Source: Sipunculus nudus
Lineage: Eukaryota; Annelida; Sipuncula; Golfingiida; Sipunculidae
Reading direction: 5' to 3'
Assembly (NCBI GenBank): GCA_026874595.1
Contig: CM049316.1
Location: 52,461,676-52,525,675 of the forward strand
Length of the DNA stretch: 64,000 nt
The position numbers were made by a program, and so were the translations under genes. Below the pieces are notes generated by a model that saw nothing but the letters and a program-made list of their open reading frames with translations, was not told where the DNA came from and ran no database searches. This document shows, one piece after another, positions 993 to 63,689 of the stretch. Every line of letters starts with the position of its first letter. The stretch's first letter is position 1.

Positions 993-1138
993 ATCTTAGA
1001 GGAAAATTGCACGTACATATCTTTATGCACTTACTTATCCAGGTCTTCAATTTGCACTTTATTTCATCTTAGAGGAAAATTGCACGTACATATCTTTATG
1101 CACTTACTTATCCAGGTCTTCAATTTGCACTTTATTTC
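993..1138. repeat. Exact 73-bp tandem duplication
   Basis: Positions 993-1065 and 1066-1138 are identical 73-bp copies starting ATCTTAGAGGAAAATTGCAC. Identity with no substitution implies a recent duplication. Confidence 0.95.
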
Positions 1139-3904: not shown

Positions 3905-5011
3905 TTTAAAGGCTTAATGTCTGCAGTATGAACGTGAATGTAGGTGGCGCCACCTGTCATAAAATCAAGAAAGCTATCTAGGAAGTATACGCATGCCGAA
4001 TTACAGGTAATTTGGTCAAACCACTGCAGTGATATGAGTGATTTTAACCAAAGGCAAACAAACAGATGGACGCTGTGCAAAAATGGCTGCAGGTGGCGCC
4101 ACCATTTTTGTGTCTGTTATAAAGCTATCCAAGGGCTACATTTGTGTAAAAACTTTTTCCTGATTGGTTTCCTGATTGGTTGAATGAGTCCGGAGATATA
4201 AGCATGGATGTCTACAGCGTGAACGTGAATGTAGGTGGCGCCACCTGTAATAAAATCAAGAAAGCTATGCGGGATGTATACGCATGCCAAATTTCAGGTA
4301 ATTTGGTCAAACCACTGCAGAGATATGAGTGATTTTAACCCAAGGCAGACAAACAGATGGACGCTGTGCAAAAATGGCTGCAGGTGACGCCACCATTTTT
4401 GTGTATGTTATAAGCTATCCAAGGGCTACATTTGTGTAAAAACTTTTTCCTGATTGGTTTCCTGATAGGTTGAACGAGTCCGGAGATATAAGCATGGATG
4501 TCTACAGCGTGAACGTGAATGTAGGTGGCGCCACCTGTCATAAAATCAAGAAAGCTATCTAGGAAGTATAAGCATGCCGAATTTCAGGTAATTTGGTCAA
4601 ACCACTGCAGAGATATGAGTGATTTTAACCTAAGGCAGACAAACAGATGGACGCTGTGCAAAAATGGCTGCAGGTGGGGCCACCATTTTTGTGTATGTTA
4701 TAAAGCTATCCAAGGGCTACATTTGTATAAAAATTTTTTTCCTGATTGGTCAAATGCTTCCAAAGATATTTGGGTTTATGTGTCGAAACAGACGCACAAA
4801 CGGACACTGGGCAGAGAGGAAAGGACAGAGGTCAAGGTCACTTGGGTTAGGCACCAGTTCATATGTGACCCAATAATTTGTGCAAGTTTCGGAAAAATCC
4901 GTCCAGTAGCCTCAGAGGGGTTCTCCGGAAACAAACGCCGCGGCAGCGGCGGAACCTGGTCAAAAACATAGTATCCGCAAAACTTCGTTTTGGCGGATAC
5001 AATAACGGGAC
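3905..5011. mobile_element. Family A element, copy 1 (pearl/HINE-like)
   Basis: 2.8 tandem copies of a roughly 290-bp unit (starts at 3931, 4222, 4512). Each unit holds two GGTGGCGCCACC-type palindromes, one in GTAGGTGGCGCCACCTGTCA context and one in GCAGGTGGCGCCACCATTTT. A 3' tail has GACGCACAAACGGACACTGG, then a terminal hairpin GTATCCGC...GCGGATAC at 4971-5000. The 5' end is not clear; a GC-rich palindrome lies just before at 3835-3900. Open frames at 3944-4183 and 4525-4971 are repeat artefacts. Confidence 0.75.
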
Positions 5012-6029
5012 GCAAGAGTTAACAGAGAAGTGATCAGTATAAAAATGTTTAATAGATTGAGATATGATATGCTTTATAAGAGAAACGGTGTCTTATTTTG
5101 TACTGTGTATTTTGATTGTGGCATAAAGCTTGGATAAAATATTAAAAATACATCAACAATAGTTGGTTGATATCGCTACCGTTTATTATGTAGACCAATA
5201 TTTTTCTATTTTCTGTGAAAAAAAAGCAAATATAAGTTGTGGCAAAAATACCGTTCAAGGTCCAATTTTGGCGTTCAAACTCGGGGAATGTCATTAATTT
5301 GTATACATTCTATACTTTGAAATGCACCCGCGACGCGCGGGTCACGATACAGGCGCTTATCTTCAACCAACTAGTAAAATATAATGAAATTCAGGAAATA
5401 TATAAAATTCAAGCTTCATAATCATATGAGACGTCCCGTCCATGCAGACCTTGACCAGCTACATCAAGCTCGCTTTGTATAAACCGGCACGCCCCCCAGC
5501 CCCACCCCATCCAGACCTCGCTCATTACAACCATAATCTTTCCTGAGCGGGTATTCCCCGGTTTCGGACGTTTGCGGATATTCCCCGACTTCAGTCTTTT
5601 TACGGGTGTTCCCCGAAGACTTTCACAGCTTCAAAAATAAGTATTTGTAATCCTGTGTGAGACGAAGTAATTCCGTTTCTGATGCCAGACTACTTGGAAG
5701 CTTGCTTGCGCAATCACACGTGACCCTGAGTTGACACGAAAGCAAGGCAGAATGGACATTGGAGGGTTTTCCTTAATTTCTCGAACAAAGTCGCAATGGC
5801 CCAGTGTTTGGTTTGGTAGGAGAACATGGGGACTGATGTGCTGCTGAATATAGAATTTCGGACGGACAGACGGACGGACAAAGGACCATCACCACAGCTC
5901 AGATGACTTACAATCAGCTAAGCTGAATAAAAATAAAAATATGCTCAAAATGAAGGTGGAAAAGCTTTCTCATCTGAAAATGTTGGCACTCTTTTGGGGT
6001 ACAAAAAAGTATTTGTTATAAAACGGTAT
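5012..6029. other. Mixed sequence with a family C 3' end
   Basis: No gene seen. 5316-5345 has a CACCCGCGACGCGCGGGTC hairpin. 5547-5617 has three NF-kB-like GGGTATTCCCC motifs. 5700-5930 is a truncated family C tail with GGACGGACAGACGGACGGAC and a variant GCTCAGATGACTTACAATC end. Confidence 0.6.
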
Positions 6030-8078: not shown

Positions 8079-8084
8079 TTTATT
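8079..8084 (-). terminator. PFDN4: Candidate PFDN4 polyadenylation signal AATAAA
   Basis: AATAAA lies on the minus strand about 160 bases after the PFDN4 stop codon. It is the first such hexamer met in the 3' UTR, and cleavage would fall near 8060. The 3' UTR appears unique down to the edge of the family E repeat. Confidence 0.55.
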
Positions 8085-8242: not shown

Positions 8243-8444
8243 TTATTCTTCCTCTGCATCTAGATTGATGTTATTTCCAAATTTGGCGTACAATGTGACC
8301 TTAAGATCTGACAACACTTGCTTGTGTCTCTCACAATTTTCCTCAAGGTCACTAATGTCCTTTTCAAGGTCACTCTTGGCATTTTCTAGCATCTGGTTTG
8401 TACTTTCCAGTGAAGACAGGACAAACACCTCCCCAATCTGGTAT
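8243..8444 (-). CDS. PFDN4: Prefoldin subunit 4, exon 4 (hairpin, second helix, stop)
   Basis: This is the last coding exon: 202 nt, with the first base completing the split proline, then 66 codons and TAA at 8243-8245. It encodes YQIGEVFVLSSLESTNQMLE, an acidic/basic coiled-coil helix, and the family-signature C-terminus LKVTLYAKFGNNINLDAEEE (human LYAKFGSNINLEADES). The second helix packs against the first in the prefoldin tentacle. The exon begins just after an AC dinucleotide with TCCTTAAC about ten bases upstream. This is a U12-type acceptor and branch site, and no pyrimidine tract is present. The reading frame is intact and no residues look damaged, so the gene is likely functional. The 3' UTR runs toward 8060, where a dispersed repeat begins. 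Confidence 0.95.
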
Positions 8445-8630
8445 GTACTGACAGTTAAGGACCATCAAATAAAACTTTGCAACATACTAGATTCCAATCT
8501 ATTTATTTAACAATTTCTGTAAAAGAAATTTACCATACAATGAGCTTAAAGCATGATACTAATTGTTGATATAATTTAGTGATGGCTAATTTGTTTATAT
8601 AACTGGAATATTAAACACTAATCTTTAAGA

Positions 8631-9013
8631 AAACAAGGGACCCAAGGGTCACTGTGCTCAGCTGAAGTTAATCTGGAAGGTAAAATTCAAAATAATATAA
8701 AATGGAGATAAAAGTCCGAGAGGAAGAAGTAATATAGGCCATGGTTGGTTGATATGATTGGTTTGTATTGATGAGTAAGAAATTGGTGCAAATAATATTT
8801 TGTGACCTGACCATGTGTTTCCTAATGTTTAAACTGAAGCATGTGAGCAGTTTGTGAACATATGATCTGTACTAATACTATTACATTGATCATTGGTTGG
8901 CTTTTTGATAAACTGTTGACAGTTCAGCAGTTTACACATTTGTTCAATCAGATTTTGTTCAATCAGAAATTGTTCAATCACATTTGTTCAATCAATTTTT
9001 TTTAATATATTAT

Positions 9014-9070
<57 letters not shown>

Positions 9071-10330
9071 GTGTGTGTGTCAGGTGTGTGTGTGTGTGGG
9101 GGGGGTGGAATGTTGGGAGTTATAAAATCTCTGTAAATACATACAGGATAATCACTAAATTCAACAGTGCTTACAGGATAAAAAAGTTCATTCCCAAATT
9201 AGTGAATAGTTAACTAGGGTCTCAAGCACATGGGTCTCGTCACTCAGCTGAATTTGTCAATAAGGATATTTTTCAAGAAGTCCTTCAGAAAGATGGTCCT
9301 GTGGCCTTAACCAATGAATCTGGGAACTTATCATCCTTTAACTTGCAGCTTATATATTATTGTAACAATCTTTAAAAAGAATGGTGGGTCAGGTGACCTT
9401 GACCTCTGACCAGGTAACCTCAAAATCTACAGATTTCTTCCACATTGGGCAAGTACCATTGAATGAAAGATGGAAAATTGTGACGAAAAGTTTAATTTAC
9501 AGTGCATCCACAATCTTTTGGAAGTTGTGGCTCCTGTGACCTTCACCTTTGACCTCTGGGCCCTGAAAATCAAGATGTTTCTTACTTAAGTGGTTGGTCA
9601 TAAATAAATCAAGTTTGAAGCCAATCTGTCTATCCAAACCAGAATTATCATCCCTAAACTAATTTGTGAATGGATGGGCCCTTTGACCTTGACCTTTGAA
9701 CCTATTACCCACAAAATCTTAAAGAATCTTCTTCTATTGGCAAGTGAGCAAAGATGGAAGGTTTGTGATGAAAGGTTTGCCTTGAAATGCATACAAATTC
9801 CTTTTAAAAAATGGCTCCTGTGACCTTGACTTATGACCTTTGGACCTTTGAACCCCAAAATCGACAGGATTCTTACTTTAGTGGTAAGCCATTTATAAGT
9901 TAGGTTTGAGATCAATATGTCAAACATAACTGGAATTATCATCTGGAAACTAATTTGTGATCAAATGGCCCTTGTGACCTTGACATTTGACCTAGTGACC
10001 CTAAATTAATTTATGATCTCCCCATACTGCCAAGTCAGCTAAATACGCAAGATGGAAAGTTTGGGATGAAAAGCTTGGCTTGAAATGCAACCAGGATCTG
10101 TGAGTGCTGTGACCTTGACCTTTGACCTGACACAAAATCATACAGGTTCTTGTTTAAGTGGTGGGCCATTGGTAAGTCAAGTTTGAAATCAATATGTCAA
10201 TCCAATTTGGAGATATCATCTGGAAATAAATTTTTGTGGATGGATGGATGGACAGATGAACAAACAAGGTGATTACTATAGGGCATCCACTTCTGATCAA
10301 TAAACACAGCAGGTTTTGGGACACTAGATG
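8631..10330. mobile_element. Family C-type element with DR1-like core repeats, copy 1
   Basis: Starts AAACAAGGGACCCAAGGGTC...GTGCTCAGCTGA at 8631. It has an (AT)n tract at 9016-9067. Six core units of about 135-155 bp follow, each holding a TGACCTTGACC/TTTGACC block (near 9406, 9539, 9686, 9822, 9977, 10111). After GGATGGATGGATGGACAGATG it ends in a diverged tail. Lies in PFDN4 intron 3. Confidence 0.7.
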
Positions 10331-10374
10331 GAGTCCCAGCTGAGAAACTGACATGATTGTTGTCATTTTATAGT

Positions 10375-10924
10375 AAAAAAAAGGGACCCAGTGGTCACTG
10401 TGCTCAGCTGAAGTTGGCCTTGAAGGTAATAATCTAAAATAATATCAAACAGAGATAAAGTCTTACAGGAAAAGGTGATATAAGCCATGGCTGGTTGACA
10501 TGATTAGTTTGTATTGATGAGTAAGAAATTGTTGCAAATAATATTTTGTGACCAGACCATGTATTTTCTTATGCTAAAAATGAAGCAGTTTGTGAACATA
10601 AGATGTATATTACTACCATGATCATTTGTTGGCTTTTTGATAAATTGTTGACAGTTCAGTAGTTTACACATTTGTTCAATTGGATCTATTTTTTTATAGT
10701 ATATAATACTATATATGTGTATTTTTTTATTTTATAAAATACTGTTGAAATATAACTAATGTCCCAAGTCAACAGATGCAAGGACTTTGGTGTTGTTGTG
10801 GGGGTGGGGGATGAATGATGGGACTTACAGCATCTCTGTATTATTATAGTGTATATACATAGGGTTTTCACTTAATTCAACAATGCTTACAGGAAAAAAG
10901 TTCATTCACAATTAATTAATATTT
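10375..10924. mobile_element. Family C 5' part, copy 2
   Basis: AAGGGACCCAGTGGTCACTG at 10379 and the following 500 bp repeat the 5' portion of the copy at 8631 (GCTGAAGTTGGCC, TTTGTGAACATA, GTTCAGTAGTTTACACATTT). It is cut by the family E element starting at 10925. Confidence 0.65.
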
Positions 10925-11407
10925 AACAAGGCCTACAGGCCTAATGCAAACCTGTGCAAAGTTTGGGAGTATGAATGGAGGATTATTTTTTAAATTTAAT
11001 ATTGATCCTCTTATGTCCTGCATATTTACCTTAGTATGATGATTTCAGCAAAATGAACATTTCAGACCTGCAAGTTTCGGATTAGGACATTTTAAAACTA
11101 GGATGTATCAGTCAGGATATTTTGGATATGTTCTTTTTACCAGGGAGGATTATTGGGACAGATGAACAGGCATTTTGGCAGCATGGTTCCGGAGAAAATT
11201 TTTAATTGTTTTTAGCTTTTTCCCTATAAAATCTAAGAAATTGCAGTTAGCCAAGAAATAAGCAAAATCTGATAGGATTTTTTAGATGACATATTTTTTG
11301 CAAATAATTTGGTGATGCTAGCTCCTGCCCTTTTTGAGATAGTTATGATGGACGACGGACAACAGACAAGGCAACACCATCGCATAAGCTCACAGATTCA
11401 CTAAAAA
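10925..11407. mobile_element. Family E element, short complete copy
   Basis: Starts AACAAGGCCTACAGGCCTAA then TGCAAACCTGTGC. Ends ACCATCGCATAAGCTCACAG then ATTCACTAAAAAT. The start segment CTAATGCAAACCTGTG is the imperfect reverse complement of the end segment CACAG(G)TTCGCTAA, so the ends are short inverted repeats. A GGACGACGGAC tract precedes the 3' end. 483 bp. Confidence 0.7.
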
Positions 11408-11409
11408 TG

Positions 11410-12296
11410 CAAACCAAGTTTTTTCAAACAGTTGAAAGATATAGTTCCACCATTTTGCCTCTTGATGATGTGTCTAGATGTCTAGATGATGTGTCTAGAC
11501 ATCTAGACATGTTCTCTTGACACCAGGAAGAGCCAGGTCAGTTGCCATGGTGATGTCTGGACTGCACCTGGGTGCACTGTGTGACCTCTTGATTTGGGAT
11601 GATGAAACTTGGTATGTTGTCATATCTTTTTTCAAACACTGAAAGCCTTTTTCAATTGGCTACACTGCTTTTTTAAAGCTGCATTTACCCAATCTATTCT
11701 TATAAAACTGGCAGAACTCTACCATTGAATAATTTTTTCGAAAGTTTAAACCAATCAGCTTAACAGTTTCATCATAAAACAGTATATAAGCTAGAAGAGT
11801 CTAAAATTACATTTTTGCTTGTAAAAACAGATCAATGTAGGTGGTGTCACCAATACCTCAATTTCAGATATGACTTATGTGACAAACATTGGCATAAAAT
11901 TTAGTGATGATATCTCCAGCTATTTCTGCGATATTAATGGCAGTGTGCTTTTTTTGACAGATGACTAAGTTCAACTTCCTATAACTTGGCCGAAAATCTT
12001 CAAACTGGAACCATTCAAACAAACTTGAGAAAGATCATTTCTGGGATTATTTTTGTGAAATATTGGACAATTTGGCTGGACAGTTTCGGAGAAGAAGATT
12101 TTTTCCCTATAAAATCTAAATTAATGCAGATACACAATAATAAGCTTTAGGGCATCAAGTTTCACATGTGACTTATTCTTACAAGTAATTTGGAGCTACT
12201 GGCTCTAACGGTTTCTGACTTACAGCCATGGACGGCTACCAGCCAGCCATAGACGGTGAACGGACAACGCCATCGCATAAGCTCACAGGTTTGGTT
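11410..12296. mobile_element. Family E 3' portion
   Basis: Contains a GTAGGTGGTGTCACCAATAC unit at 11838, the text GGCATAAAATTTAGTGATGA and a GAACGGACAACGCCATCGCA end then TAAGCTCACAGGTTTGG. A TCTAGATGATGTGTCTAGAC palindrome-like cluster lies at 11470-11510. Confidence 0.55.
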
Positions 12297-12520
12297 GAAA
12301 AGAACAGACAGACTGGTAAACAAACTAATCTGATAATATATGAAGTTTCAATTATTTCTCAATTTTTTATTGTATCAAATTTTAAAGTTAACATCTGTAA
12401 TATTACACAACTGAATATACACGTTGTTTCAAATTTCAGACTTTAATAGCTTAAATCCATACACATTTAGCATTAGAAAAGTATTTCAGCAGTGCTCATA
12501 GTAAAAATTTTATATATTTA

Positions 12521-13815
12521 ACTAGATACGGGTAGTCGACAAGCGACTATGTGTATCCGCCAAAATCAAGAGTGGAACAGGTGAAGTGAGGCATGGATTG
12601 AATGGCAAGGGGAAATAGAGTGAGGTCTGTTGCATATTAGCCTGGATGTCTGCAGCAGAAATGTGTCTGTAGGTGTCGCCACCTGCCAAAAAAATTGAGA
12701 AAGCTAACCAAGATGTATAAACACGCAAAATTTTAGGCAGATAAGTCAAACCACTTCTGAGAAATGAGTGATTTTAGCCCAAGGCAGACAAAAAGAGGGA
12801 CGCTGTGCAAAAATGGTTGAAGGTGGCCCCTCCAGTTATGTGTATGATAAAGAGCTATGTGAGATCTATATACACCAAAAATTTTGGCCCAATCAGTCAA
12901 ACAGTTCCCAAGATATGAGCTTGAATATCAGCAGAAACTAAAATGTAGGTGGCGCCACCTGTCATAAAATCATGAAAGCTGTCCCAGATGTATAAACCTG
13001 CAAAATTTTAGGCAGATATGTCAAACCATTGCCGAGTTATGAGTGATTATATCCCAAAGCAGACAAACAGATGGATGCTGTACAAAAATGGTTGCAGGTG
13101 GCGCCACCAGTTTTGCGTATGATAAAGAGCTATGTGAGATCTATACACATGCAAAATTTTGGCCCAATCTGTCAAATGGTTCCTGAGATATGAGCTTGGA
13201 TGTCTACAGCGTAAACTAGAATGTAAGTGGCGCCACCTGTCACAAAATCAAGAAAGCTGTTCAGGATGTATAAACCTGCAAAATTTTAGGCAGATATGTA
13301 ATTACTGCCAAGATATGAGTGATTTTATCCCACAGCAGATAAACAGATGGACGCTGTACAAAAATGATTGCAGGTGGCACCACAAGTTTTGCGTATGGTA
13401 AAGAGCTTTGTGAGATCTATACACATGCAAATTTTCAGGAAGATATGTCAACCCAGTCCGGAGATATAAGCACGGATGTCTGCAGTGTTAACCTGAATGT
13501 AGGTGACGCCACCTGTCATAAAACAAGAAAGCTATCCAGGATGTATACGCATGCCAAATTTCAGGTGAATTAGTCAAACCATTGAGGAGATATGAGTGAA
13601 TTTAACCCAAGGCAGAGAACAGATGGACACTGTGCAAAAATGGTTGCAGGTGGCACCACCATTTTTTGTGTATGTTATAAAGCTATCCCAGGGCTACATT
13701 TGTACAATTTTCTTTTCCTGATCGGTCAAACAGTTTCCGAGATATGTGGGTTTATGTGTGGAAACAGACGCACAAATGGACGCTGGGCAGAGAGGAAAGG
13801 TCAGAGGTCAACTCA
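12521..13815. mobile_element. Family A element, copy 2
   Basis: 5' end ACTAGATACGGGTAGTCGAC with a GTCGACAAGCGAC hairpin and GTGTATCCGCCAAAA, the inverted form of the family 3' end. Four roughly 272-bp core units follow (GCTTGGATGTCTACAGCGTA-type starts near 12649, 12917, 13193, 13470), each with two GGTGGCGCCACC-type palindromes. The 3' end is truncated after GACGCTGGGCAGAGAGGAAA. Confidence 0.75.
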
Positions 13816-13829
13816 AATTGGTTAGGCTG

Positions 13830-14339
13830 ATCTCCAATTCTACTGAGGCAGGAAAATAATGAACAAATGTTTGTATTAAATCCTAATTTATCACATCAAT
13901 TTTTTTAAATTTTAAGTTTATATTTCTATATATTTCCAATATAACATATATATCTGAATATAAAAGTTGATTCATAATTCTAAATTGCATCATCATAAAT
14001 CCTAATCTTGTCAGATAACATCACATCATGCATACAAATGTATATTTATTTTTTACCAAAAATATATCTTTTAAATTTGCAAAACAATAAATATATAAAA
14101 ATAATACTTGATTCAGATTTTACTATTTAAAATTGTGCCTTTATCCATAATTTGCTTCGTATTTTATAAATGTATGCATACTGAAGGGTTTAATTATATT
14201 TTAATTTGTCAAAATCATTTAAAGAAAATTGATTACTTTTAAAATGTTACATTAACACAACATTGGCATCTTCTGTTTTACTCCTTGAATTACTTTTTCA
14301 AGGAAAATTTTGCAATTTGGAGAGGAAACAGATTTATAT
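13830..14339. other. AT-rich gap, nothing recognised
   Basis: About 80% A+T by eye, with no coding, RNA or clear repeat signal. Confidence 0.5.
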
Positions 14340-15148
14340 TTAAGGAAATACATTGGTGGGGGGAATTATATGAGAATAACTGTACACGTGTAACGGCCCC
14401 CCCCCCCCCAGCTAATTAACTAAAACTAGCCTAATTTTCAAACTTTTATTTTCAAATTTCAGATTAAGCAATTTAAATACTTATGTTTACATGCTGTGAA
14501 AATTAAATCAAACAGTACTCACAGAAAAAAACCTGCCATGGTCAAAGTTGGACAAAATTTAAGGTTCTGCTTTTATTTTTATGCTAATAACTTTTAAAAA
14601 TTTCAAAATTCAGATCTAATTTTGGGTATATAATTGAACCTTAATTAAACAAAGTTATATACTTGGAAAAAAAGTCTCTAGCTTCAAAAAGTTTCATGCT
14701 AAGTGGGCAAATATTTTTCCTGATTTTTTACCAAGTCCATTATGTTAGGGCCCATGACTTAAAGAAATTAAACTTAACAGGTTTGACTTCGAGCATGTAA
14801 ATAAGACATATATAGGAGAATACTTCTGGTAAATATTACAAAAAAACAGATAAGTGGTTTTGATATTAGGCAGTCCTGAAGTGTGATAATAGGTTTTTTA
14901 ATGGAAATTTGAGGTTTCTCCTTAATTTCTAGAAGGAACCATGTCGCATGGTTTTAATTAATGGTTGTAATTAATATTTGGTTTGGTAGGAGATCTTAAG
15001 GACATCTAACAGTATGCAGAATTTTAGATTTGTCTAATGGTTTCAAAATGTGCCAGTCTAAGGGATTGACAGACAAACGGACAGACAGACGATGGACAAT
15101 GGACCAAGACTATAGCTCGAAGACTTATAGTCAGCTGAGCTAAAAATT
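14340..15148. mobile_element. Family C 3' part, copy 3
   Basis: Shares about 700 bp with 16600-17343, 17510-18180 and 47990-48733: AAATTTAAGGTTCTGC, TTTTCCTGATTTTTTACCAA, GTGGTTTTGATATTAGGCAG. It ends in GGACAGACAGACGATGGACA, then ACTATAGCTCGAAGACTTATAGT and CAGCTGAGCTAAAAA. A poly-C run lies at 14397-14409. Confidence 0.7.
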
Positions 15149-15229
15149 TAAAATATTCCTAAAAATTAGAAAAATTAGACATTTCTGGCATCTGAGATGC
15201 CGTAGTATCCCCAGACATATAAAGCATTC

Positions 15230-16106
15230 CTCCTTCTAAAATAGACACTCTTCTTCTGAATTATAAATTGACGCAAGGCAGGGCAAAGGTCACAAATGTT
15301 TGAACTTGTCTGACATCCCGGTGGAGATTGTTGTGTCAAATTTGAAGGGAACAGATGCAGTACTTCAAAATTATGGGGTTGACCAAATTTCTGTTTCCAA
15401 AGATTTCAGAACAGATGGCTCATGTCACACTGATCTTTGACCTTGTGACCCAAAAATTGATAGGAATCTTAGCCCACTGGTGAACTATATTTGCAAGAGG
15501 AAAGGCTTAGGATGAAAACTATTGCTTAAAATGCATCCACAATCTTTTAAAGATGTGGGTCTTGTGACCTTGACCTTTGACCTCATGACCCCAAATCAAT
15601 AGGATTCTTGCTCTATTGATTGGGCATATATAAGTCAAGTTTGAAACCCATATATCAATCCAAGCTGGAGTTATCTCCAGGAAAGGACTTTTTGAACAGA
15701 TGGCTCCTGTGACCTTCACCTTTGACCCTGTAACCCAAAAAATGATATGGATCTTCCTCTATTGATAGGTGAGGTATATGTGCAAGGTGAAAGGTCTGGG
15801 ATGAAAAGTTTTGCTTAAAATGCATCCACAGTCTTTTCAAAGATGTGTCCTGTGACCTTGACCTTTGACTGCATGACCCCAAAATGAACAGAGGTATTGC
15901 TTTATTGATGCGCCATAAATCAAAGTCAGGTTTGGCATCTATGTATCAATCCAAGCTGGAATTATCATCTTAAAACCTAATTTTTTGACAGATGGCTTCT
16001 GTGACCTTTACCTTTGACCTTGTGACCTAAAAATTGATAGGGGTCTTCTTCTATTGGCAGGTGAACTATATGTGAAAGATGAAAGGTCTGAGATGAAAAC
16101 TTTGGT
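15230..16106. repeat. Tandem core units with TGACCTTGACCTTTGACC
   Basis: Five units of about 140 bp, each with the TGACCTTGACCTTTGACCTC type block (15430, 15567, 15710, 15855, 15998) and ATTGGCAGGTGAACTATATG-like text. Same core as 9406-10150. Cut at 16107 by a family C copy. Confidence 0.75.
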
Positions 16107-17343
16107 AAACAAGGGACCTATGGGTCACGGCGCTCAGCTGTTATATATGATAAAAAAATATGATTTAGAAATGAGGCACATGCTGGTTTTATGTGGTAAT
16201 AAAAATAAGCTGTATGAGTTGTTGTTGTTTAGCTTATGTATGATTTTGAAAGTACCTTTGGAGACAGAGAAGAGAACTGATTTCATTTATTTTATCAACA
16301 AATGGAGTACTATTGTCACACAGATTTTGACTTGGCCATATAACTTATAAGCAGAACATATAATATAAGAGTTTAACTATTAATTAAAAAAAATTACAAA
16401 TATTGTCCCAGATATAATTTTATTAAAAATAATAAGAGAATCGTATGATTTTTAAAATGAAATATAACTGAAATGATTATTAAAATAATATTAAAGAATA
16501 TATTCATGAATGCATCATGAGGGGATTTTGGAGACATCTAATTGTATGCCAAATTTTAGGAACTGAGAGCTTAAGCTGGAGAGCTGAGCTCTTGCAAACT
16601 GCATAACACTAGCCTGATGTAAACAATATGTTACATGGTGATTGAAAACTTGAATAAAATCTACAGTTTTTGATCAACTGGTTTCAAATTTTTGGTGTAA
16701 ACAGACAAAATGCTAATTAAAACATGCTGAGAAAATTAAATCCACAGTACTTACAGGAAAAAAACGTGCCATGGTCAAAGTTAGGCAAAATTTAAGGTAC
16801 CAATTTTTTATTTTTGTTAATATTTTAAAAAATTTAAAAGATTTTGATCTAATTTTGGGTATACAATTTAATTTTGATTAATTAAAGTTATATTACTTGA
16901 AAAAAAGTCCATAGCTTTAACAAGTTTTGTGTTAAGTGATCAAATATCTTTCCTGATTTTTTACAAAATGCATTATGTTCTGGCCCATAACTTTCTTAAA
17001 TTATATAATACAGACATAATTTCAGGCATGTACATAGGAACAATATAGAGGAATATTTATGGTAAATATGAGGAAAACCAGATGAGTGGTTTTGATATAA
17101 GGCAGTCCTGAAGTGTGAAAATAGGTTTTTAATAAAAAATTTTTCCTTAATTTCTCAAAGGAACAAAGTCGCAAAGACCCAGTTTTTGGCTTGGTAGGAG
17201 ATCTTGGGGACATCTAACACTATGCCGAATTTTGGATTCCTAGGTCTTACAGTTTCAAAATGTGCCACATCTACAGACGGACGGACAGACGGACAATGGA
17301 CCACGACTATAGCTCAGATGACTTATAGTCAGCTGAGCTAAAA
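16107..17343. mobile_element. Family C element, full-length copy
   Basis: 5' end AAACAAGGGACCTATGGGTC then ACGGCGCTCAGCTG. 3' end GACTATAGCTCAGATGACTT then ATAGTCAGCTGAGCTAA. The GACTATA...TATAGTC hairpin about nine bases before CTAA resembles a Helitron/Helentron 3' end. A GGACGGACAGACGGAC tract precedes it. No transposase or helicase coding. The copy lies inside the preceding core-repeat element. Confidence 0.75.
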
Positions 17344-17399
17344 ATTGTATATTGGAGTGGATATAGCATTACAATTAAGGTAATACAGTGTAAACAAAA

Positions 17400-18180
17400 T
17401 TAATTACTGAATAACACTTGGTGGGGAAGAGGGTGGGGGGGGGGGCATAGCTGATCTCCAGTGAACGAAGTGGTGCATTATGCAAGTGAATACAATAGAG
17501 CCTCTGAAAAAAAATTCAATAACTAGCCTTAATTTTAGTTTTTATTTTCAAATTTCATAATTTAACAGATTAAATCCTTATGTGTACTTGCTGTGAAAAT
17601 TAAATCAAATTTACTTACAAAAAAAGTGCCATGGTCAAACTTAGGAAAAAACTTAAGGTACTGATTTTATATTTTTGCTTATAACTTAAAAGATTAACAA
17701 AATTCAGATCTAATTTCAGTTATACAGCTAAATCTTGATTAAATAAAGTTATTTCCCTGAAGAAAAGTCTCTAGCATCAACAATTATCATGTAAAGTGAG
17801 TAAATATTCTTCCTGATTTTTGCAAAGTTTATAATGTTTGGGCCCATAACTTTTATGAATTATGTAATACTTACCCAATTTCTGGCATGTACATAGGAAC
17901 TATATAGGGAAATATTTATGGTAAAGAAGAAAAACAGATGAGTGGTTTTGATATTAGTCAGTCTTGAAGTGTGATAATAGGTTTTTAATGAAATATTTAG
18001 GTTTTTCCTTAATTTCTCAAAGGAGCAAAGTCACACGACCCAGTTTTCAGTCTGATAGGAGATCTAAGGGACATCTAACAGTATGCTAAATTTTGGATTT
18101 GTAGGTCTTATGCTTTAAAACGTGCCGGTCTAACTGACGGACAATGGACAATGGACCACAACTATAGCTCTAACAAGCAC
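17400..18180. mobile_element. Family C copy, 3'-truncated
   Basis: Repeats the body of the neighbouring copy (GTGCCATGGTCAAACTTAGG, GAGTGGTTTTGATATTAGTC) but breaks off after GGACCACAACTATAGCTC. A poly-G run lies at 17434-17443. Confidence 0.65.
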
Positions 18181-18189
18181 ACATTGCAT

Positions 18190-18619
18190 CAAGAAAGCAA
18201 AGTGTCTGTGTGTATCTTTCTACTGAATATTATGATGGATGGTTTAGCATTTCAATTTTCCTGGAATTAACAGAAAAGGTGTCATACTTTTGGTGAAAAA
18301 ATATTTTCTGTTAAACAAAGAGTATGAATTTATATCTTTAAACCAAACTAGTAATCATTTGTTTCCTTATGTGCAGCTCACAAGATTCATGAGAAAGATG
18401 GAAACCTGGGGCATATTTATGTTCCATGAATATGTTCCTGTTCATGTGCATTGTTCAAGATAAACCTAATCAACTCCCTCAGTTGGTTACACCACCAAGA
18501 GGCATGGGAACTATGTCAAGGCTGTCAATAATGGCAACAAGGAAAACACTGTGCAGAATCCAACTCACAAGAGTAGGGTTCTGAGGCTTCACAATCTGCA
18601 GCACACAATGCACCGCAGC
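18190..18619. other. Unique-looking sequence before the minisatellite
   Basis: No gene or repeat recognised. An open frame on the minus strand enters from the minisatellite and is not supported. Confidence 0.45.
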
Positions 18620-19545
18620 TTCAAGATACTTGAGTGGCGTATCCATAAATGAAGTGAAGACCAAGGCTTCAAGATACACGAGTGGCGTAGCTATGAATGT
18701 AGTGAAGACCAAGGCTTCAAGATACACGAATGGCGTAGCTATAAATGTAGTGAAGACCAAGGCTTCAAGATACACGAATGGCATAGCTATAAATGTAGTG
18801 AAGCCAAAAGCTTCAAGGTATATGAGTGGCATAGCTATAATTGTAGTGAAGACCAAGGCTTAAAGATACATGAGTAGCGTAGCTATAAATGTAGTGAAGA
18901 CCAAGGCTTCAAGATAACAAGTGGAGTAGCTATAAATGTAGTGAAGACCCAGGCTTCAATAGACACGAGTGGCGTAGCTATAAATGTAGTGAAGACCAAG
19001 GCTTCAAGAGACACAAGTGGCATAGCTATAAATGTAGTGAAGACCAAGGCTTCAAGATACACGAGTGGCGTAGCTATAAATATAGTGAAGACAAAGGCTT
19101 CAAGAGACACAAGTGGCGTAGCTATAAATGTAGTAAAGACCAAACCTTCAAAATACACGAGTAGAATAGCTATAAATGTAGTGAAGACCAAGACTTCAAG
19201 AGACACAAGTGGCATAGCTATAAATGTTGTGAAGACCAAGGCTTCAAGAGACACAAGTGGCATAGCTATTAATGTAGTGAAGACCAAGGCTTCAAGATAC
19301 ACGAGTGGCATAGCTATAAATGTAGTGAAGACCAAGGCTTCAAGAGACACATGTGGCATAGCTATAAATGTAGTGAAGACCAAGGCTTCAAGAGACACAA
19401 GTCGCATAGCTATAAATGTGGTGAAGACCTAGACTTCAAGATATACATGTGGAGAAGTTAAATGTAGTGAAGACCTAGGCTTCAAGAACGAGTGGAGTAG
19501 CTATAAATGTAGTGAAGACCAAGGCTTCAAGATTCAGAAGTGGCG
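18620..19545. repeat. 48-bp minisatellite, main block
   Basis: About 19 tandem copies of a 48-bp unit with core GTGAAGACCAAGGCTTCAAG followed by an (A/G)GTGGCGTAGCTATAAAT-like half. Because 48 is a multiple of three and the unit lacks stops in some frames, long frames stay open on both strands (18630-18863 and 18941-19432 plus, 18479-18856 and 18883-19407 minus). These are not genes: the repeat continues at 23761 after an inserted transposon. Confidence 0.93.
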
Positions 19546-19814
19546 TACCGTAATGTCTACTTGAATTCGTACAGAAAAAATAATTATTTTTCTCGGTGTG
19601 TTAATTATTATATGTAAAATATGAAAAATTAGAATACTGCAGGAGAGAAGACCGTCTGACACCTGAGAATCGGCGGTGGGCGATAATAGAGGATGTACGG
19701 CAACCCTCATGTTAATTATTATTTAACACTTGTTCGGGAATATATGTGAGCGCTACTGGTGACGAAAAAGATATCCATTATATCCTGTAACTGGCATTTT
19801 ATAAACCAGTGTCT

Positions 19815-19873
<59 letters not shown>

Positions 19874-19916
19874 CAGGGTTTTAGCCGCGCCGGTCGGGGG
19901 TAACCGCCGGGGACGG

Positions 19917-22197
19917 CAATAAATAAAACTCGGAAGTCGGAAGCCCTCGGAAGTCGGAAGCCGTTTTATTTTTTAGTATAATTTTAAAAATAACGAACAA
20001 ATCGACAAGTTTTTGTGTTAAAACGGAAGATATAGACACCCTTATTCATACGAGAAAGTTTCAAAGATATATATTAATATATATGAAAATTAAAGCATAA
20101 TTAATGCGTCGGAAGCCTCTCGGAAGTCATCCTGAAGTGACAAATGATGCTTAAAATGCATAAAACTCGGAAGTCAAGCCACAGTATCAACCAACAATGA
20201 CACAAAAAGGTCTTGCATCAACCCAAATATTAATTCAGGTAATATTTATGTATTTGAATAAAATCATAATATATATAACTAACAAAATAATATATGCATT
20301 AACCCAAATATTAATTTAGGTAATATTTATGTATTTGAATAAAATCATAATGTATATAACTAACAACATAATATATAAATTCATATTAAAATATAAAATA
20401 TGAATATAAAATACTATCATTATAAATTAAAAAAAAACAGTATAATACAATACAGATTTGTTTTGGTATTCTCTTTTATTTTCATTGAACAAATTCATAC
20501 ATGATGCAAAATATAATTACATAATACAAGTATAATAAAATGTATACATAATGTGTTAAATAACACAGATGACGATATAATTATATATTCATTCAACAGC
20601 GAAATAATTTGATATTAAATTATATTATATGATAAAATATCATATATTATAAAAGTACAATATAATCAATATTCCTATATTAAGTAAGACAAAAATATAT
20701 AGGTCAATATAAATTAATATATGAAATGATTAAATTGTATATAATATGATTATTTATATATCCATTCATGTATGTGATAATTTATCTCCTCCACCTAGGG
20801 AGTTATTCTAACAAATAAAAAGGATAACAGATGGCAGAAAAGATTTTAGATGGCGATTCCTCCTATTAGTTGTAACTGATAATTATCTAAAGATAGTTTA
20901 TGTCGTTACCTTAAAGGCACACGCGTTTCATTGTTCTTATTGCCTGATCCCCAGTTAGCACAAACATTTTATGAAACTGTTCTTAAAATGTTTCCAAAAC
21001 AGTATGTGGCTTTAAAGTGTAAAATTAAAAAATGATCTCTGGACTCATATAATAATGTAATATCCTTCCTACATAAATTTTTTTGATTAAGCTAAAATTA
21101 AAATATAAAGATCCTGTTATAATTTATATCAATATTTTTGCAACTTCACATAGCTTTTTTTAAAATCTTTCACAGTTATGCAGTTTTACATATTTTTAAA
21201 TTTTCGAAATATTTTGGAAGTGTTTTTATAATGGTTTATGCAAATTATCTGTGCAATGTTCTAAAAATGTTTCCTGATACGTTGGGTGATCAGTATTCAA
21301 CAAGCATTGGAGAGTTATATGCGTTCCATATAAAGCAACCTAATGCATGGATAAAAATTAGTTTCATTTATACTGTATATAGCACCCTAATGGATAAAAA
21401 AAGAATAGTTTTATTAATACAAAACTTAATGGACTTTTCTTATGGTTTTACCAGTTCCTGCATGGATGCGACAGTTTGATACTTTGTTTTTTTTTACATT
21501 AATATACAAATTTATGTATTTTATCAAATATTTGAATAGTATTATGTAAAAATATTATAATACAAATTAATGTAGAATACTTAACATTTTTTATATGATA
21601 AAATATTCTAATCTATTTTGTTATATAAGGAAAAAAATTATTACACCATTTTGATAAAATTACGTAATTTTAAATGTTTTTATATTATATTTATTAAAAA
21701 TAACATTCCATATTAAAATATTACGTCGCGATATGATATATAATGTGTTACATTTGAATGTATATTTCAACATTTATTTTTTTTTATATTTTATATATCA
21801 TTATGTTTAATTAGTAATATACATTATGGTTTTATTCAAATACATAAATATAACTTTAATTAAAATTTGAAATGATGCAAGACTTTTTCTGTGTCATTTT
21901 TGGTTGGTGCTATATGGTCTTGACCTCCGAGTTTTTATGCATTTTGAACATCATCTGCATCATCTGTCACCTCAGGATGACTTCCGAGAGGCTTCCGACG
22001 CATTATAAATGCTTTGATTTTCATATATGGGAATATACGTTTGTTCGACTTTCTGGTTTTGCAAAGGGGGTCTATATCTTCCATTTTAACACGAAAAAGT
22101 GTTGGTATGATCGTTATTTTTAACATTATATCAAAAATTATAACGGCTTCCGACTTCCGAAGGCTTCCGACTTCCGACTTCCGAGTTTTATTTATTG
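19917..22197. mobile_element. Mutator-like element with ~450-bp inverted ends
   Basis: Very long inverted arms: about 19917-20420 matches the reverse complement of about 21760-22197, including the tip CAATAAATAAAACTCGG, the TCGGAAGTCGGAAGCC repeats, and an inner TATTTATGTATTTGAATAAA segment. A 13-bp direct repeat, CCGCCGGGGACGG, borders the element at 19904-19916 and 22198-22210. Part of it can be counted with the inverted tips, so the true duplication is 9 to 13 bp. Long inverted ends with about 9 bp duplicated fit Mutator-like elements. The AT-rich centre has one unassigned 113-codon frame (21138-21479). Confidence 0.75.
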
Positions 22198-22884
22198 CCG
22201 CCGGGGACGGCCTGTACTGCCGGCCGGAACAAACTAAACATTTGTAACCCACAGACCGGCACAAAAGATCATAAAGATCGTCAAAAAATCCAGCTACCGG
22301 CAATGGAACTACAGTATTTTATTACCCCAAACTGTTAATTTGTACCTCATTAGTATGTTAACAAATTTATTTGATCACGGCTATGGTGCAAACAAAATTG
22401 ACAGAAGTCACTGATCACCTTAATATTACACATCAAATAAATTATTGGTAAACAAACAAGCAACGATCTTCGAAGGGTTTCACAGTTTGGACATGAAAGG
22501 AAAACATCATTAGCCAGGGGTCTCTCACAGCGTACATCGGTGCGTAGCATCATTAGCGGTAAGAAAATGGGCTATTGTTTTGTAATAATTCATGGCAACA
22601 TTTAATTCATTTAATAACATATTTGTATGGATTTCAGAATACGCCCTAAAAAAAGCAATGGTGATTTTCTCAGGGCGTTAATGAAATTAATTCCGGGTGC
22701 CACCTGGCGGCAAGTGAACTTATTACAGCTGTGAATATGTAATCTCACCAGATTTATATATATATTTCAATGAATTAAATGTTTATTTTACACGTTTGGT
22801 AATTCCAGTGGAAAGAAATAAATGAAAAATATATGTTTATAATATTTCTAAATTGAGACGGGGGGAATAACATAAAAGGGGGAA

Positions 22885-22965
22885 AAAAAGTGATAGGTTT
22901 GAACCAGGGTAATAAGGTTAACTTTCTAACCGTTCATGCGCCTCTAACCAATCGGCCACAGATGC
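22885..22965 (-). pseudogene. tRNA(Ser/Leu)-like pol III sequence
   Basis: On the minus strand TGGCCGATTGGTTAG (22958-22944) matches a tRNA box A of the Ser/Leu type, and CCTGGTTCAAACCT (22908-22895) matches box B. A run of seven T follows, as at a pol III terminator. The T-stem and acceptor stem do not pair well and no long variable arm is evident, so this is a tRNA pseudogene or SINE head, not a working tRNA. It lies inside the TA-flanked transposon. Confidence 0.4.
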
Positions 22966-23760
22966 CAACGCAACACATGTAAGTTTTTATTTGGGAGATT
23001 CTAATAAGATTCATACAGCGGGGTAAAAAAATAAATTATTTCACGGACATTACCGGGATTTATCAAATAAAAAGTCTAGGAGACAGCGGTATATCCTTTG
23101 TAGCTGCGGTTCAAAGCACTCTGACGATCTCCATTTAACCTTTGATGTCTTGCAGCACCAGGTCATGCCTGTGATCAGTGGTCCGTGCGAGGTTTGTCCC
23201 GAGTGGATTACCAGTATATGATCATCAGCTAATGTGATTTTTGTCCCAGTTACAAATCCTTCTTATTCTATTATTAAGTAAACAAAATATTATCGATTAA
23301 AACACATTTTTTACCACGAGTTCTATTGTTCAAATCACATTCATGTTGTAACAAGTCTGAAGCAAAGATGGCCCATCGGTGTCAGTTAAGTGACAGTTTT
23401 TCCTGTTTACAAACATGAAGTCGCAAATCTGATAAAATTGTTCCGATAAATGTTTACAAACATGAAGTCGCAAATCTGATAAAAATTGTTCCGATCATGG
23501 TACTGTCACGCACTAGGACATAAAGATGTCTTGTTATCAGGTGAACAGCGTCGACATTTGATTCATCTCAGCATGCAAAGCCATTTTAATCACAGCAACA
23601 TATATGGTTCATACGGACCGCCGGTGGTCACCGGCAATAGCTAATATCGGCACAGTATGTTGGTGTACGAATTCAAATATGTATTATAGAAAAATATGTT
23701 TCAAGAAATTTATAGTGTGCGAACTAATGAAGGATACGAACTAATGTAGACATTACGGTA

Positions 23761-23875
23761 GCTATAAATGTAGTGAAGACCAAGGCTTCAAGAGACACAA
23801 GTGGTGTAGCTATAAATGTAGTGAAGACCAAGGCTGAAGAAACACAAGGTGTAGCTATAAATGTAATGAAGTATA
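23761..23875. repeat. 48-bp minisatellite, block displaced by a transposon
   Basis: Two and a half further copies of the same unit (GCTATAAATGTAGTGAAGACC and onward). The first base joins exactly in phase with the unit interrupted at 19545, which shows that 19548-23758 was inserted into the array. Confidence 0.9.
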
Positions 23876-23879
23876 ATGT

Positions 23880-24810
23880 AGTCCATTCAAATATGTTGCA
23901 TAAGAATTGGTCTCAAGGCAAATTCCATAAGGTAAGGACTTCACAGAATAAGTAAAATTTTGTAAGCATTAGTATGTGAAATGTAAACAGAAGGTTTTCT
24001 AAAGTGTATCATATTATGATTTGAGGTCTGAAAGTTAGTCCTGGCTGTCCCTCATTACCTTACTGGTAGAAGTTAATTTTGAGTAGAAGCAACAAGGGTG
24101 CTGCAAGGAAAGGAAATGCTTACCAAAGCCAGGACTTATCATTTTTGTTTAATTGACTGATATAATGTTAATTTTGTCATTATCTGCAATGCTTTTGATT
24201 TATTGATAAACCTCAATGAAATCAAATGACATACACTATTGATTGGTATTTTAAGATACATATATGTGGGTATGTGAACAATGTGTATTGGTATCGGAAC
24301 AGGAGCATGGTTCTGTTTGCTTCAGCTTTTGCAAACAAGAACAGGATTGGTTCTGAGAACAAAAACACATCAGATTACAACAGAGCACCCACACCCAACC
24401 CTCCTGGTAGCCAGGTGAAGTTCTTATCATAGTAGTATCCTAAACCCACATCAAAGGGCTCAGGTATGGTAACGAATCTTTAATAAGGATGATATTTAAC
24501 AATTAAATTTTTATTGCACTGCTACTAGCAAATTGATGAGTATACATTTAATGGTAACTATATAATTTCAACAAATATCAACTAAATTTAATATGTGAAA
24601 TATTAAAACATTTTGAGCTAAAATCGTATATTGTCTAGTGTGCATACCCCATAAAAAGAAATTTTTAGTGGCCTGCGCAGGTTCATATCCTTGTCCAATG
24701 TAAAACCAGTTAAACAATACCATTCAGAAGCACCACTGACCCAGTATTTAGATGACTGTGTAACAATAATGAGCATCAACAACCTAAATTTGCACTAGCA
24801 TCACATCAAC
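23880..24810. other. Intronic sequence with no recognised feature
   Basis: PFDN4 intron 3. Short frames only, none with a known match. Confidence 0.5.
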
Positions 24811-25381
24811 CCTCTGACATTACGACCAGATTATTGGACTACCAGAGTGTCTTTACATCTAGGTCTGGGGATCGCATTATAAGGCCTCATGAGGATGCAA
24901 ATATTTTCATCATTTTTTACGCCTCTTGGCCTACAAGTTCACTGTCAATTTACATAAACTAAATCAATCGTTAGCATTTCTTGTGTACTTTCTAATAACA
25001 CTAAACATGAGCGAGAAAGTTACGTTTTAACTTAGCATATTGGTAAACCCCACGGCATGTTTGTTGAATTTATGACCGCATGAACACAATCATGGCTCAC
25101 ACGGGTTACAGGACACAGACAACTTGCAGGCAATACAGGAAATGACTCTTTACCACAGAGACAGGGTTTCAGTTTGGGTTGTGAGTTCACATTTATTCTT
25201 TTATGTTAAATAATCATCTGTCACACAATGTCAGGATTATAGATGGTTTTACCACAATATGAATGCAACCTGATGGAAACCACTGTGATGCATCCCTTAA
25301 TAGATATTGCTTGTATCATGACTCGAGTGGGCTTACCAGCCCAATTATCACTACCTACTGAGTTGGGTTGTCACGGCTAAA
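24811..25381 (+). repeat. ~570-bp dispersed direct repeat, copy 1
   Basis: Matches 58711-59293 in the same orientation over its whole length, for example AACATGAGCGAGAAA, TTTGTTGAATTTATGACCGC, GGAAATGACTC, TTACCACAATATGAATGCAA and GTTGTCACGGCTA. Unknown element with no convincing coding potential. CpG sites kept in the other copy are often TG or CA here. Confidence 0.85.
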
Positions 25382-26119
25382 TTTGCAAAGAAGTTGCAAA
25401 AGGAAATATGAACAAATCTGCTTCCACACCTGAACTATAACTGAATAGGCCAATGAATATTAAAAACAAAATGGCTCTTTCAACCTGATAATCAATGACA
25501 GCAGTCATAGCTATTTTAAATTTCCCACACTTTTCTAAACACTATATTAACATTAACATGCAAATTAAAGGAATTTATGTCCTCCCCTTCTGCCTTCAAA
25601 TCTGGGATGATATAGTGGTGAATAAGTACAAATAGTTTTAACCATGCTTAAAAGATGGCAGCACCTGGCAATTACTGCAAAAAAATTCAAGTATTTTATG
25701 TCAACTTCTAGCGACATCTGTTCGTTAATAGTGAGACTAAATGTGCTGATTCTTCATATAAAACATGAAATATCATTTGCATTACTGTCTTGTGAGGAAG
25801 ACACTCCAAAACCAATCCCAACCAAGGTAAGCATGAGAGAAAGAACGGACCCAAATTTGAATGAAATCAATTAAAATTTAGGAAAGTTATTGCACGGAAA
25901 CAAAAACCTGACAGACAGACAGACAGAGAGACAGACAGACAAACCTAAATCAATGTCCCGCGTTCCTTCCAAAGAAGCAGGGAACAATAAACACTAACAC
26001 CTTTGTTGAAATTCCCTGAAAAGCAAATCCTATTAAAGAGATCATTTATGTAAATATCAAATAAGAGGTAGGCTGCATATGTGGCAACAAAACCAAACAA
26101 AATATGAATGTGGTGGGGT
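25382..26119. other. Intronic sequence with a (GACA)n tract
   Basis: No gene. GACAGACAGACAGACA at 25911-25945 is followed by AATCAATGTCCCGCGTTCC, possibly the tail of another short element. Confidence 0.5.
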
Positions 26120-26129
26120 AAAAGGATAT

Positions 26130-26200
26130 GGTATTGCTTCTTCTTCATCTTCTACCATCAGCAATTCATCTGCTGCATCCTCCAGATTCTGAAGTTCTTT
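26130..26200 (-). CDS. PFDN4: Prefoldin subunit 4, exon 3 (helix to hairpin)
   Basis: This internal exon of 71 nt encodes KELQNLEDAADELLMVEDE, then EEAIP, with the proline codon split (CC at the exon end). It matches human QLQNLEDACDDIMLADDD...IPYQIGD closely and covers the end of the first coiled-coil helix and the turn into the beta hairpin. The acceptor is a run of seven T then GCAG at 26201-26204. No GT or usable GC donor fits the exon end. The bases after CC are ATATCCTTTT, the U12-type AT-AC 5' splice site consensus. The frame across to exon 4 works only with this junction and gives IPYQIGEVF, as in other animals. The exon sits about 26 bp from the start of the 33-bp minisatellite. Confidence 0.93.
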
Positions 26201-26225
26201 CTGCAAAAAAATGAGCAGTACAAAC

Positions 26226-27440
26226 ATACATGACTTTATACACATATACCAGTCATACAGGTGTGACCACACATACATGTATCACTCATACAAGTGTGAC
26301 CACACAAACATGTACCAGTCATACAGGTGTGCCCACTTACACATGTACCCGCATACAGGTGTGACCACACACACCTGTACCAATCATACAGGTGTGACCA
26401 CACATACATGTATCACTCACACAGGTGTGACCACTTACACATGTACCAGTCATACAGGTGTGACCACTTACACATGTACCAGTCATACAGGTGTGACCAC
26501 ACATACATGTATCACTCATACAGGTGTGACCACATACACATGTATCACTCATACAGGTGTGACCACATACACATGTATCACTCATACAGGTGTGACTACT
26601 TACACATGTACCTCTCATTCAGGTGTGACCACTTACAAATGTACCAGTCATACAGGTGTGACCACTTACACATGTACCAATCATACAGGTGTGACCACAC
26701 ATACATGTACCAGTCATACAGGTGTGACCACTTACACATTTACTAGTCATACAGGTGTGACCACATACACATGTATCACTCATACAGGTGTGACCACATA
26801 CACATGTACCACTCATACAGGTGTGACCACTTACACATGTACTAGTCATACAGGTGTGACCACACATACACATATTACTCAAACAGGTGTGACCACACAT
26901 ACATGTATCACTTATACAGGTTTGACCACATACACATGTATCACTCATACAGGTGTGACCACTTACACATGTACCACTCATACAGGTGTGACCACTTACA
27001 CATGTACTACTCATACAGGTGTGACCAATTTACACATGTATCACTCATACAGGTGTGACCACTTACACATGTACTAGTGATACAGGTGTTACCACTTACA
27101 CATGTATAACTCATACAGGTGTGACCACATACACATGTACCACTCATACAGGTGTGACCATTTTCACATGTACCAGTCATACAGGTGTGACCACTTACAC
27201 ATGTACTAGTCACACAGGTGTGACCACACATACACTTATTACTCATACAGGTGTGACCACTTACACATGTACCACTCATACAGGTGTGAACACACATACA
27301 TGTATCACTCATACAGGTGTGACCACATACACATGTATCACTCATACAGGTGTGACCACACATACATGTACCACTCATACAAGTGTAACCAAAAACACAT
27401 GTGCCATCCATACAGGTGTCACCACACACACATGTATGCT
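26226..27440. repeat. 33-bp minisatellite in PFDN4 intron 2
   Basis: About 36 tandem copies of a 33-bp unit, TCATACAGGTGTGACCAC followed by TTACACATGTACCAG, with mild variation. A multiple-of-three length with no stops keeps long frames open on both strands (26211-27077 plus, 26619-27014 and 27007-27447 minus). These are artefacts of the repeat. Every unit contains AGGTGTGA. The array ends about 25 bp from the PFDN4 exon 3 acceptor. Confidence 0.95.
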
Positions 27441-28370
27441 GTGACAAACAGTTAGGTCATCACTGACTCATAACTGGGCTGTGTGGTGCTGCATGTTTAT
27501 CTGCATTTTACCATTACAAACACACCAGGCGTATCAATGTTTGGTCTGCATCCCATTTTGTAAATTACCTAAGGTAATATAATCCCTGTACTGGTCACTG
27601 CTTTCAGGTTTTTGAAATTAATTAAAGTGAAAACTATGCAAGACTGAATTGATCAAAATTACATCAATCTGCAAAAGATAATGTAATCCGTGAAGCATCC
27701 TTGCACTGATATTGGGAGTTCACAAGCCTTGTACCTCCAGATTTTCCAACTTAGATCTCAACACTTTATTAAGAGTTCAGTTTCATAAAAGAATTATATT
27801 TGATTTAAGATTAATATAAAATCATTAGATATCAATGGGCCGATCATTCATGTGATGTAGCAATTTTATTATTATGCCAAAGGTTGACTGTAGAGTTGAG
27901 CAACCCTGGTAGTGTTTGTGAAACCAGGACTCCATGGACCCAGATCACAGACCCCAGGAATAATCTATTATTTTTAAAACACTCATGGTAATTTGTTTGG
28001 ACATTTTAGCAGGAAGTATCTAAAGATGTATTCTTAAATTAGGATTGGTTAAAACATACAAAAACAATCTGTTTTGCAACAAAATTTGATAATCAACACC
28101 TATGGACCATGGCACACAGACCTCACAAATCCCACAGACCCCTTTTACTCTCTGTTTTACCAATTCTTTAGCATGTATTTTCACATCACGTTAAGGCATA
28201 ACACACATGTGATTTTGTTACTGTGTTTTTGTATCTGTATTTTTTACATTTTTTGTCTCACTTTTATTCATATTTTTAAATTCGCTATTCATTCCATTGT
28301 GTATCGTTTTCAAAAGTATAATGAGAACACAATGGTGGATTTCATTGAACCAAATTTGATACAAGTAATG
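27441..28370. other. Rest of PFDN4 intron 2
   Basis: Unremarkable intronic sequence between the minisatellite and exon 2. Nothing else recognised. Confidence 0.6.
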
Positions 28371-28374
28371 TTAC

Positions 28375-28479
28375 CTTTCTGCTGTCTAATTCCTCTTTCA
28401 GGTCCTGCAGTTTGGCATTGTGACGAGCAAACTTATTAATCTGCTGCTGGTCTTCAAATGTCACTGTTACTTCATTATC
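28375..28479 (-). CDS. PFDN4: Prefoldin subunit 4, exon 2 (first helix)
   Basis: This internal exon of 105 nt (35 codons, phase 0 at both ends) encodes the conserved start of prefoldin subunit 4: DNEVTVTFEDQQQINKFAR, followed by a Lys/Glu-rich stretch ending in DSRK. It aligns directly with the human VTFEDQQKINKFARN block. Prefoldin is a six-subunit cytosolic cochaperone that captures unfolded actin and tubulin and hands them to the CCT/TRiC chaperonin. PFDN4 is a beta-type subunit, two coiled-coil helices joined by a beta hairpin, and this exon forms the first helix. The acceptor is a T-rich tract ending TTTAG and the donor is AAAG|GTAAC, both ordinary GT-AG signals. Intron 2 follows (26201-28374, 2174 bp) and is more than half minisatellite. 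Confidence 0.93.
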
Positions 28480-63606: not shown

Positions 63607-63689
63607 AAAAGCCCTTTGGCCTGAAGTAAATAAACAAATATTCCCCCAATTTTGTGTTAAGTAGTTATATGTCATGTAAAACGTATTTA

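Follow-up and report, generated by a model that had tools for sequence, protein, structure and literature searches.

A 17.7-kb intron with U12-type AT-AC signals and nested elements in the prefoldin subunit 4 gene of Sipunculus nudus

The stretch analysed here, hereafter the window, comprises 64,000 nucleotides of Sipunculus nudus (assembly GCA_026874595.1, contig CM049316.1, positions 52,461,676 to 52,525,675 of the forward strand), and its minus strand carries the gene for prefoldin subunit 4 (PFDN4). Judging from its boundary sequences, the third intron of this gene, which holds one mobile element nested within another, is almost certainly a genuine U12-type AT-AC intron. In the following, we describe the gene model and the splice signals, then the interior of the intron, and we weigh the competing explanations as the evidence on them is presented.

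The PFDN4 gene and the junction between exons 3 and 4

When joined, PFDN4 exons 2-4 encode 125 amino acids followed by a stop codon, and their product aligns without gaps, over query residues 3-124, to the PDB chain 7wu7_4 ("Prefoldin subunit 4"; E 1.2e-38), which we take to be human, the search result itself naming no species. Both sequences found in the PDB search at E 0.001 or better carry the name prefoldin subunit 4, and the product also matches the Pfam family Prefoldin_2, the prefoldin beta-type domain (E 1.2e-22). Since exons 2-4 are free of frameshifts and internal stops, the locus looks like a working gene. Its features, in the order of transcription, are the following:

28375-28479, minus strand: exon 2, 105 nt, 35 codons (DNEVTVTF...LDSRK), placed by reading frame and by the match to prefoldin subunit 4
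26201-28374, minus strand: intron 2, 2,174 bp, an ordinary GT-AG intron ending with TTTTTTTGCAG
26130-26200, minus strand: exon 3, 71 nt (KELQNLED...EEAI, then CC)
8445-26129, minus strand: intron 3, 17,685 bp, phase 2, probable U12-type AT-AC intron
26121-26129, minus strand: putative U12-type 5' splice site ATATCCTTT, 9/9 match, at the gapless coding junction
8454-8461, minus strand: putative U12-type branch-site motif TCCTTAAC, whose two A residues lie 11 nt (first) and 10 nt (second) short of the intron's final base
8445-8446, minus strand: terminal AC of intron 3, from the boundary sequence
8243-8444, minus strand: exon 4, 202 nt, with a TAA stop at 8245-8243
8079-8084, minus strand: AATAAA polyadenylation-type signal, 158 nt past the stop

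Exon 3 ends with ...GCA ATA CC at 26130, and ATATCCTTTT begins at 26129, directly after CC. At the other end, the intron finishes at 8445 with GTCCTTAACTGTCAGTAC, exon 4 follows from 8444 with ATACCAG, and the wider 3' boundary reads GGTCCTTAACTGTCAGTAC/ATACCAG (here and below, the slash marks an exon-intron boundary). The branch site, GTCCTTAAC, agrees with the consensus TTCCTTRAC at 8/9 positions, and the sequence between it and the end of the intron, TGTCAGTAC, holds no polypyrimidine tract. Intron 2 served as an internal control, having GT-AG ends and the T-rich acceptor TTTTTTTGCAG; it also holds a 33-bp minisatellite at 26238-27436 (36 copies, 86% matches). The original prediction, made from the sequence alone, had named PFDN4, placed the intron at 8445-26129 and assigned it to the AT-AC minor class; the gapless prefoldin alignment and the Prefoldin_2 match bear out the gene, the coordinates proved exact on the minus strand, and the minor-class signals were found at the 5' splice site, the branch site and the terminal AC.

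Five equivalent placements of the intron give an identical mRNA, with termini CA-TA, AT-AC, TA-CA, AT-AT and TC-TA, among which only 26129/8445 has termini of the AT-AC, GT-AG or GC-AG kinds. To other boundaries we applied a frame scan, pairing GT, AT and GC donors over 400 nt with AG and AC acceptors over 210 nt, and 91 frame-keeping pairs were obtained (27 AT-AC, 26 AT-AG, 12 GC-AC, 12 GC-AG, 6 GT-AC and 8 GT-AG). The prediction that only this junction keeps the frame was therefore too strong, as 90 other pairs do so; what stands is that 26129/8445 is the sole pair (1/91) giving the conserved peptide IPYQIGEVF, which aligns to IPYQIGDVF of the known PFDN4 chain with one change.

The motifs were also compared with chance expectation. 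On the minus strand of the window (64,000 bases), RTATCCTTT occurs once, at 26129, and TCCTTRAY followed by AC or AG within 8-21 nt likewise occurs once (with ends at 8445, 8441 or 8438). A first-order Markov estimate, which took account of the 5 equivalent ways of placing the intron and of 8 offsets of the branch site, gave a chance of 5.1e-8 that the donor and branch motifs would both fall at the coding junction, a post hoc and rough figure. Neither motif is significant alone: across both strands, RTATCCTTT was observed 4 times against 2.0 expected, and TCCTTRAY...YAG 2 times in the 64 kb against 4.1 expected.

Nested elements and repeat load of intron 3

Inside intron 3, a satellite array is interrupted by an element, here called A, which in turn contains a second element, B:

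18618-19547: 48-bp satellite array, left part, from tandem-repeat and empty-site analysis
19548-23758: element A, 4,211 bp including B, with 24-bp terminal inverted repeats (21/24) and a TA target duplication
19915-22199: element B, nested in A, 2,285 bp, with the 9-bp target duplication GCCGGGGAC on both sides
23759-23871: 48-bp satellite array, right part, from the same analyses

The inverted repeats of element B are about 400 nt long, with 79.7% identity over a 408-column inverted match. When the flanks of element A are joined with a single TA, the satellite sequence GTGGCGTAGCTATAAATG is obtained, which is found intact at 18969 and 19113. Given the target duplications and this empty-site match, the nesting of B in A, and of A in the 48-bp satellite, is established at the level of sequence, in agreement with the nested transposons of the original prediction. 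Element A shares with TA-target DNA transposons the TA duplication and inverted repeats, and element B shares with Mutator-like DNA transposons the 9-bp target duplication and long inverted repeats; these superfamily labels are our presumption, derived from the length of the target duplications rather than from any sequence match. No transposase was recognised in A or B, where a single open reading frame, lying across the edge of B (21938-22318), was scanned against Pfam and gave no match.

Repeats make up 12,825 of the 17,685 bases of intron 3 (72.5%) on window-only evidence, the cumulative tally being 9,333 bases from self-matches, 9,676 with tandem arrays added, and 12,825 with A and B. Self-match coverage is 52.8% in the intron versus 39.3% in the whole window, so that the intron is richer in repeats, by no large factor. 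This kind of sequence is prone to wrong assembly joins, and intron 3 might be partly an artefact in which a repeat contig was inserted or misjoined between two correct exons. We consider this very unlikely, given that the insertion points of both elements, the joins that were checked, are clean to the base, A having its TA duplication and the satellite empty-site match, and B its 9-bp duplication.

With respect to age, CpG observed/expected is 0.27 in the left and 0.28 in the right flank of the intron, and 1.58 in the left part of A, 1.13 in B and 0.97 in the right part of A. Because both elements retain CpG lost from the rest of the intron, they look young, consistent with recent insertions into a gene body that we presume to be methylated. 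Intron 3 would have grown passively: starting out at about 13.5 kb, rich in repeats and as poor in CpG as a methylated gene body should be, it would have received element A within a satellite unit, and element B would then have landed in A. As 2,371 bp separate A from the donor and 11,103 bp separate it from the acceptor, these insertions would have left the splice signals untouched.

Further features of the window were recorded along with these. In 1-kb bins, CpG observed/expected is 0.67-1.10 in 1-6000 versus 0.02-0.46 in 6001-32000, outside the 19-24 kb occupied by A and B; the drop sits near the 3' end of PFDN4, a pattern as in mosaic gene-body methylation. A dispersed repeat family includes 3917-4750 and 12668-13686 (tandem, with units of 275-290 bp), with self-match relatives at 38432-39634 and 39976-40614, and of the 10 copies of the palindrome GGTGGCGCCACC in the window, 8 fall within stretches of this family. 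Upstream of exon 2, probably within intron 1 of PFDN4, lies a remnant of a long interspersed nuclear element (LINE) at 33553-36191 on the plus strand, with RVT_1 in 34107-34991 (E 6.9e-21) and zf-RVT in 35868-36191 (E 1.1e-8), in which CpG is less depleted than on either side. Pieces of this LINE were the only above-cut-off Pfam matches among 10 open stretches picked by eye from 96 of 75 amino acids or more; PHA01746 (0.044) and U5_2-snRNA_bdg (0.021) fell below the cut-off and were taken as noise. At the right edge of the window, 63291-64000 forms a large palindrome, with an 84% match to its own reverse complement over 721 columns. No tRNA match was found within the window.

Class of the intron and competing explanations

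With the intron's interior described, we return to how it is removed. Under the assignment to the U12 type, U11 would pair with ATATCCTTT and U12 with TCCTTAAC, after which, as is established for minor splicing, U6atac would replace U11; the minor spliceosome would then join CC to ATACCAG, restoring IPYQIGEVF. Removal of intron 3 by the minor spliceosome is what we infer from these signals.

An alternative is that the major spliceosome removes the intron by means of a nearby GT-AG or GC-AG pair, PFDN4 being altered by several residues. Frame-keeping pairs of both kinds do exist (8 GT-AG and 12 GC-AG, such as 26155/8438, 26098/8438 and 26137/8438), but 0/20 give IPYQIGEVF, the peptide present with one change in the known PFDN4 chain; judged by eye, the donors ATG/GTAGAA and TTT/GTTTGG seem weak, and coincidence (about 5e-8) would have to account for the U12 signals at the gapless junction. 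We therefore find this explanation hard to believe. Scarcely credible is a U2-type AT-AC intron, of the rare class handled by the major spliceosome: AT-AC termini alone are reported not to decide the class (PMC2831892, PMC3584512), but in sodium channel genes the AT-AC introns of the U2 type carry G at position +5 (PMC2831892), where intron 3 has C, and the perfect ATATCCTTT donor and the U12 branch motif at about the right distance likewise disfavour it.

Several observations weigh against the U12-type assignment and the account of recent insertions. At the first position of the branch site, G replaces the T with which the consensus TTCCTTAAC begins (GTCCTTAAC for TTCCTTAAC). The branch A, at 10-11 nt, lies at the lower margin of the distance reported as optimal for U12-type introns, 11-13 nt (PMC3584512). 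The minor spliceosome is presumed to be present in the organism; within the window, no Rfam family was found above threshold. A plus-strand motif pair without recognisable coding flanks, GTATCCTTT at 59461 with TCCTTAAT (acceptor end 60815), occurs in the same window. The CpG argument for age presumes that the gene body is methylated in the germline and that the elements are not biased in their own right, and it is limited by the 25% GC of element B and by the left part of A measuring just 367 bp. Finally, no secure PFDN4 exon 1 was found on the minus strand above 28479 under four filters that assumed a phase-0 junction, and the gene model is for this reason incomplete.

The plus-strand pair was rejected as an intron, since short three-frame translations of both flanks, inspected by eye, held no recognisable exon. 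It acts as a control, in that such pairs arise by chance in 64 kb if a coding junction is not required, and because of it the U12 motifs alone prove nothing.

As for exon 1, the four filters left 8, 2, 24 and 3 candidates, and a further polarity filter was passed by 0/8 of the first set. The most plausible candidate, at 57652-57629 on the minus strand, reads MATIAKNT with the donor ACG/GTCAGT and lies in a CpG-rich stretch; its weak points are the poor donor and an ATG 79 nt upstream in a different frame. We regard it as a weak candidate and do not claim it as PFDN4 exon 1. If it were correct, the gene would span about 49.6 kb and the protein would have about 133 amino acids.

Intron length and significance

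Minor introns are reported to constitute <0.5% of introns. In human, about 26% of them are AT-AC (PMC10639083), so that the AT-AC subtype as such is normal. Three AT-AC introns of Trichinella spiralis, based on expressed sequence tags, have the same ATATCCTTT donor and, near the terminal AC, the branch motif TTCCTTAAC, sharing TCCTTAAC with intron 3 (PMC2846911). Their lengths are 94, 182 and 2,095 bp (PMC2846911) versus 17,685 bp in PFDN4, and intron 3, unlike them, belongs to the PFDN4 gene and has an interior packed with repeats.

Published data on length come from several systems. Across species, the median lengths of minor and major introns are correlated (Spearman 0.903), with some insects being exceptional in having much longer minor introns, such as Hermetia illucens with 4,019 vs 105 bp (PMC10639083), and mean intron lengths scale with the size of the genome, U12 introns showing no sign of a limit to their size (PMC7367187). 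In mouse and human, retention is higher for the shorter minor introns, and alternative splicing is more frequent for the longer ones (PMC6717393). For CBP20 mini-genes in plants, longer introns were reported to be spliced more efficiently: that of Vitis, which measures 2,733 nt in its gene, reached 34.65-fold over the 134-nt Arabidopsis intron; the Physcomitrella intron was spliced poorly, for which the authors blame its branch site (PMC5932401). These published lengths are all below 17.7 kb, and none of the data suggests that length by itself would make splicing poor. In calling the intron unusually long, the original prediction went too far, as across species minor introns by and large lengthen together with major introns and with the genome (PMC10639083, PMC7367187).

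Among the papers looked at, PFDN4 did not turn up as a minor-intron gene, and neither "prefoldin" nor "PFDN" occurs in the main text of the minor-intron papers checked, a search not reaching the gene lists in supplementary tables. The PFDN4 minor intron may well be catalogued already. A bolder proposal, which we hold to be unlikely, is that it is missing from the catalogues, being either lineage-specific or ancestral and converted or lost in vertebrates, and that it has kept near-perfect U12 signals while reaching 17.7 kb through recent nested insertions; for a minor intron in an invertebrate housekeeping gene, its transposon load would then be among the heaviest. Intron 3 is well formed, bulky and loaded with repeats, but of a kind already known. 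Should it prove real in RNA, no PFDN4 transcript containing exons 3 and 4 could be made unless the minor spliceosome acted across 17.7 kb of repeats. The locus would then allow one to test, in a natural setting, whether transposon load is tolerated by minor introns as it is by major ones, and it would give a clear position at which to ask when PFDN4 gained or lost a minor intron.

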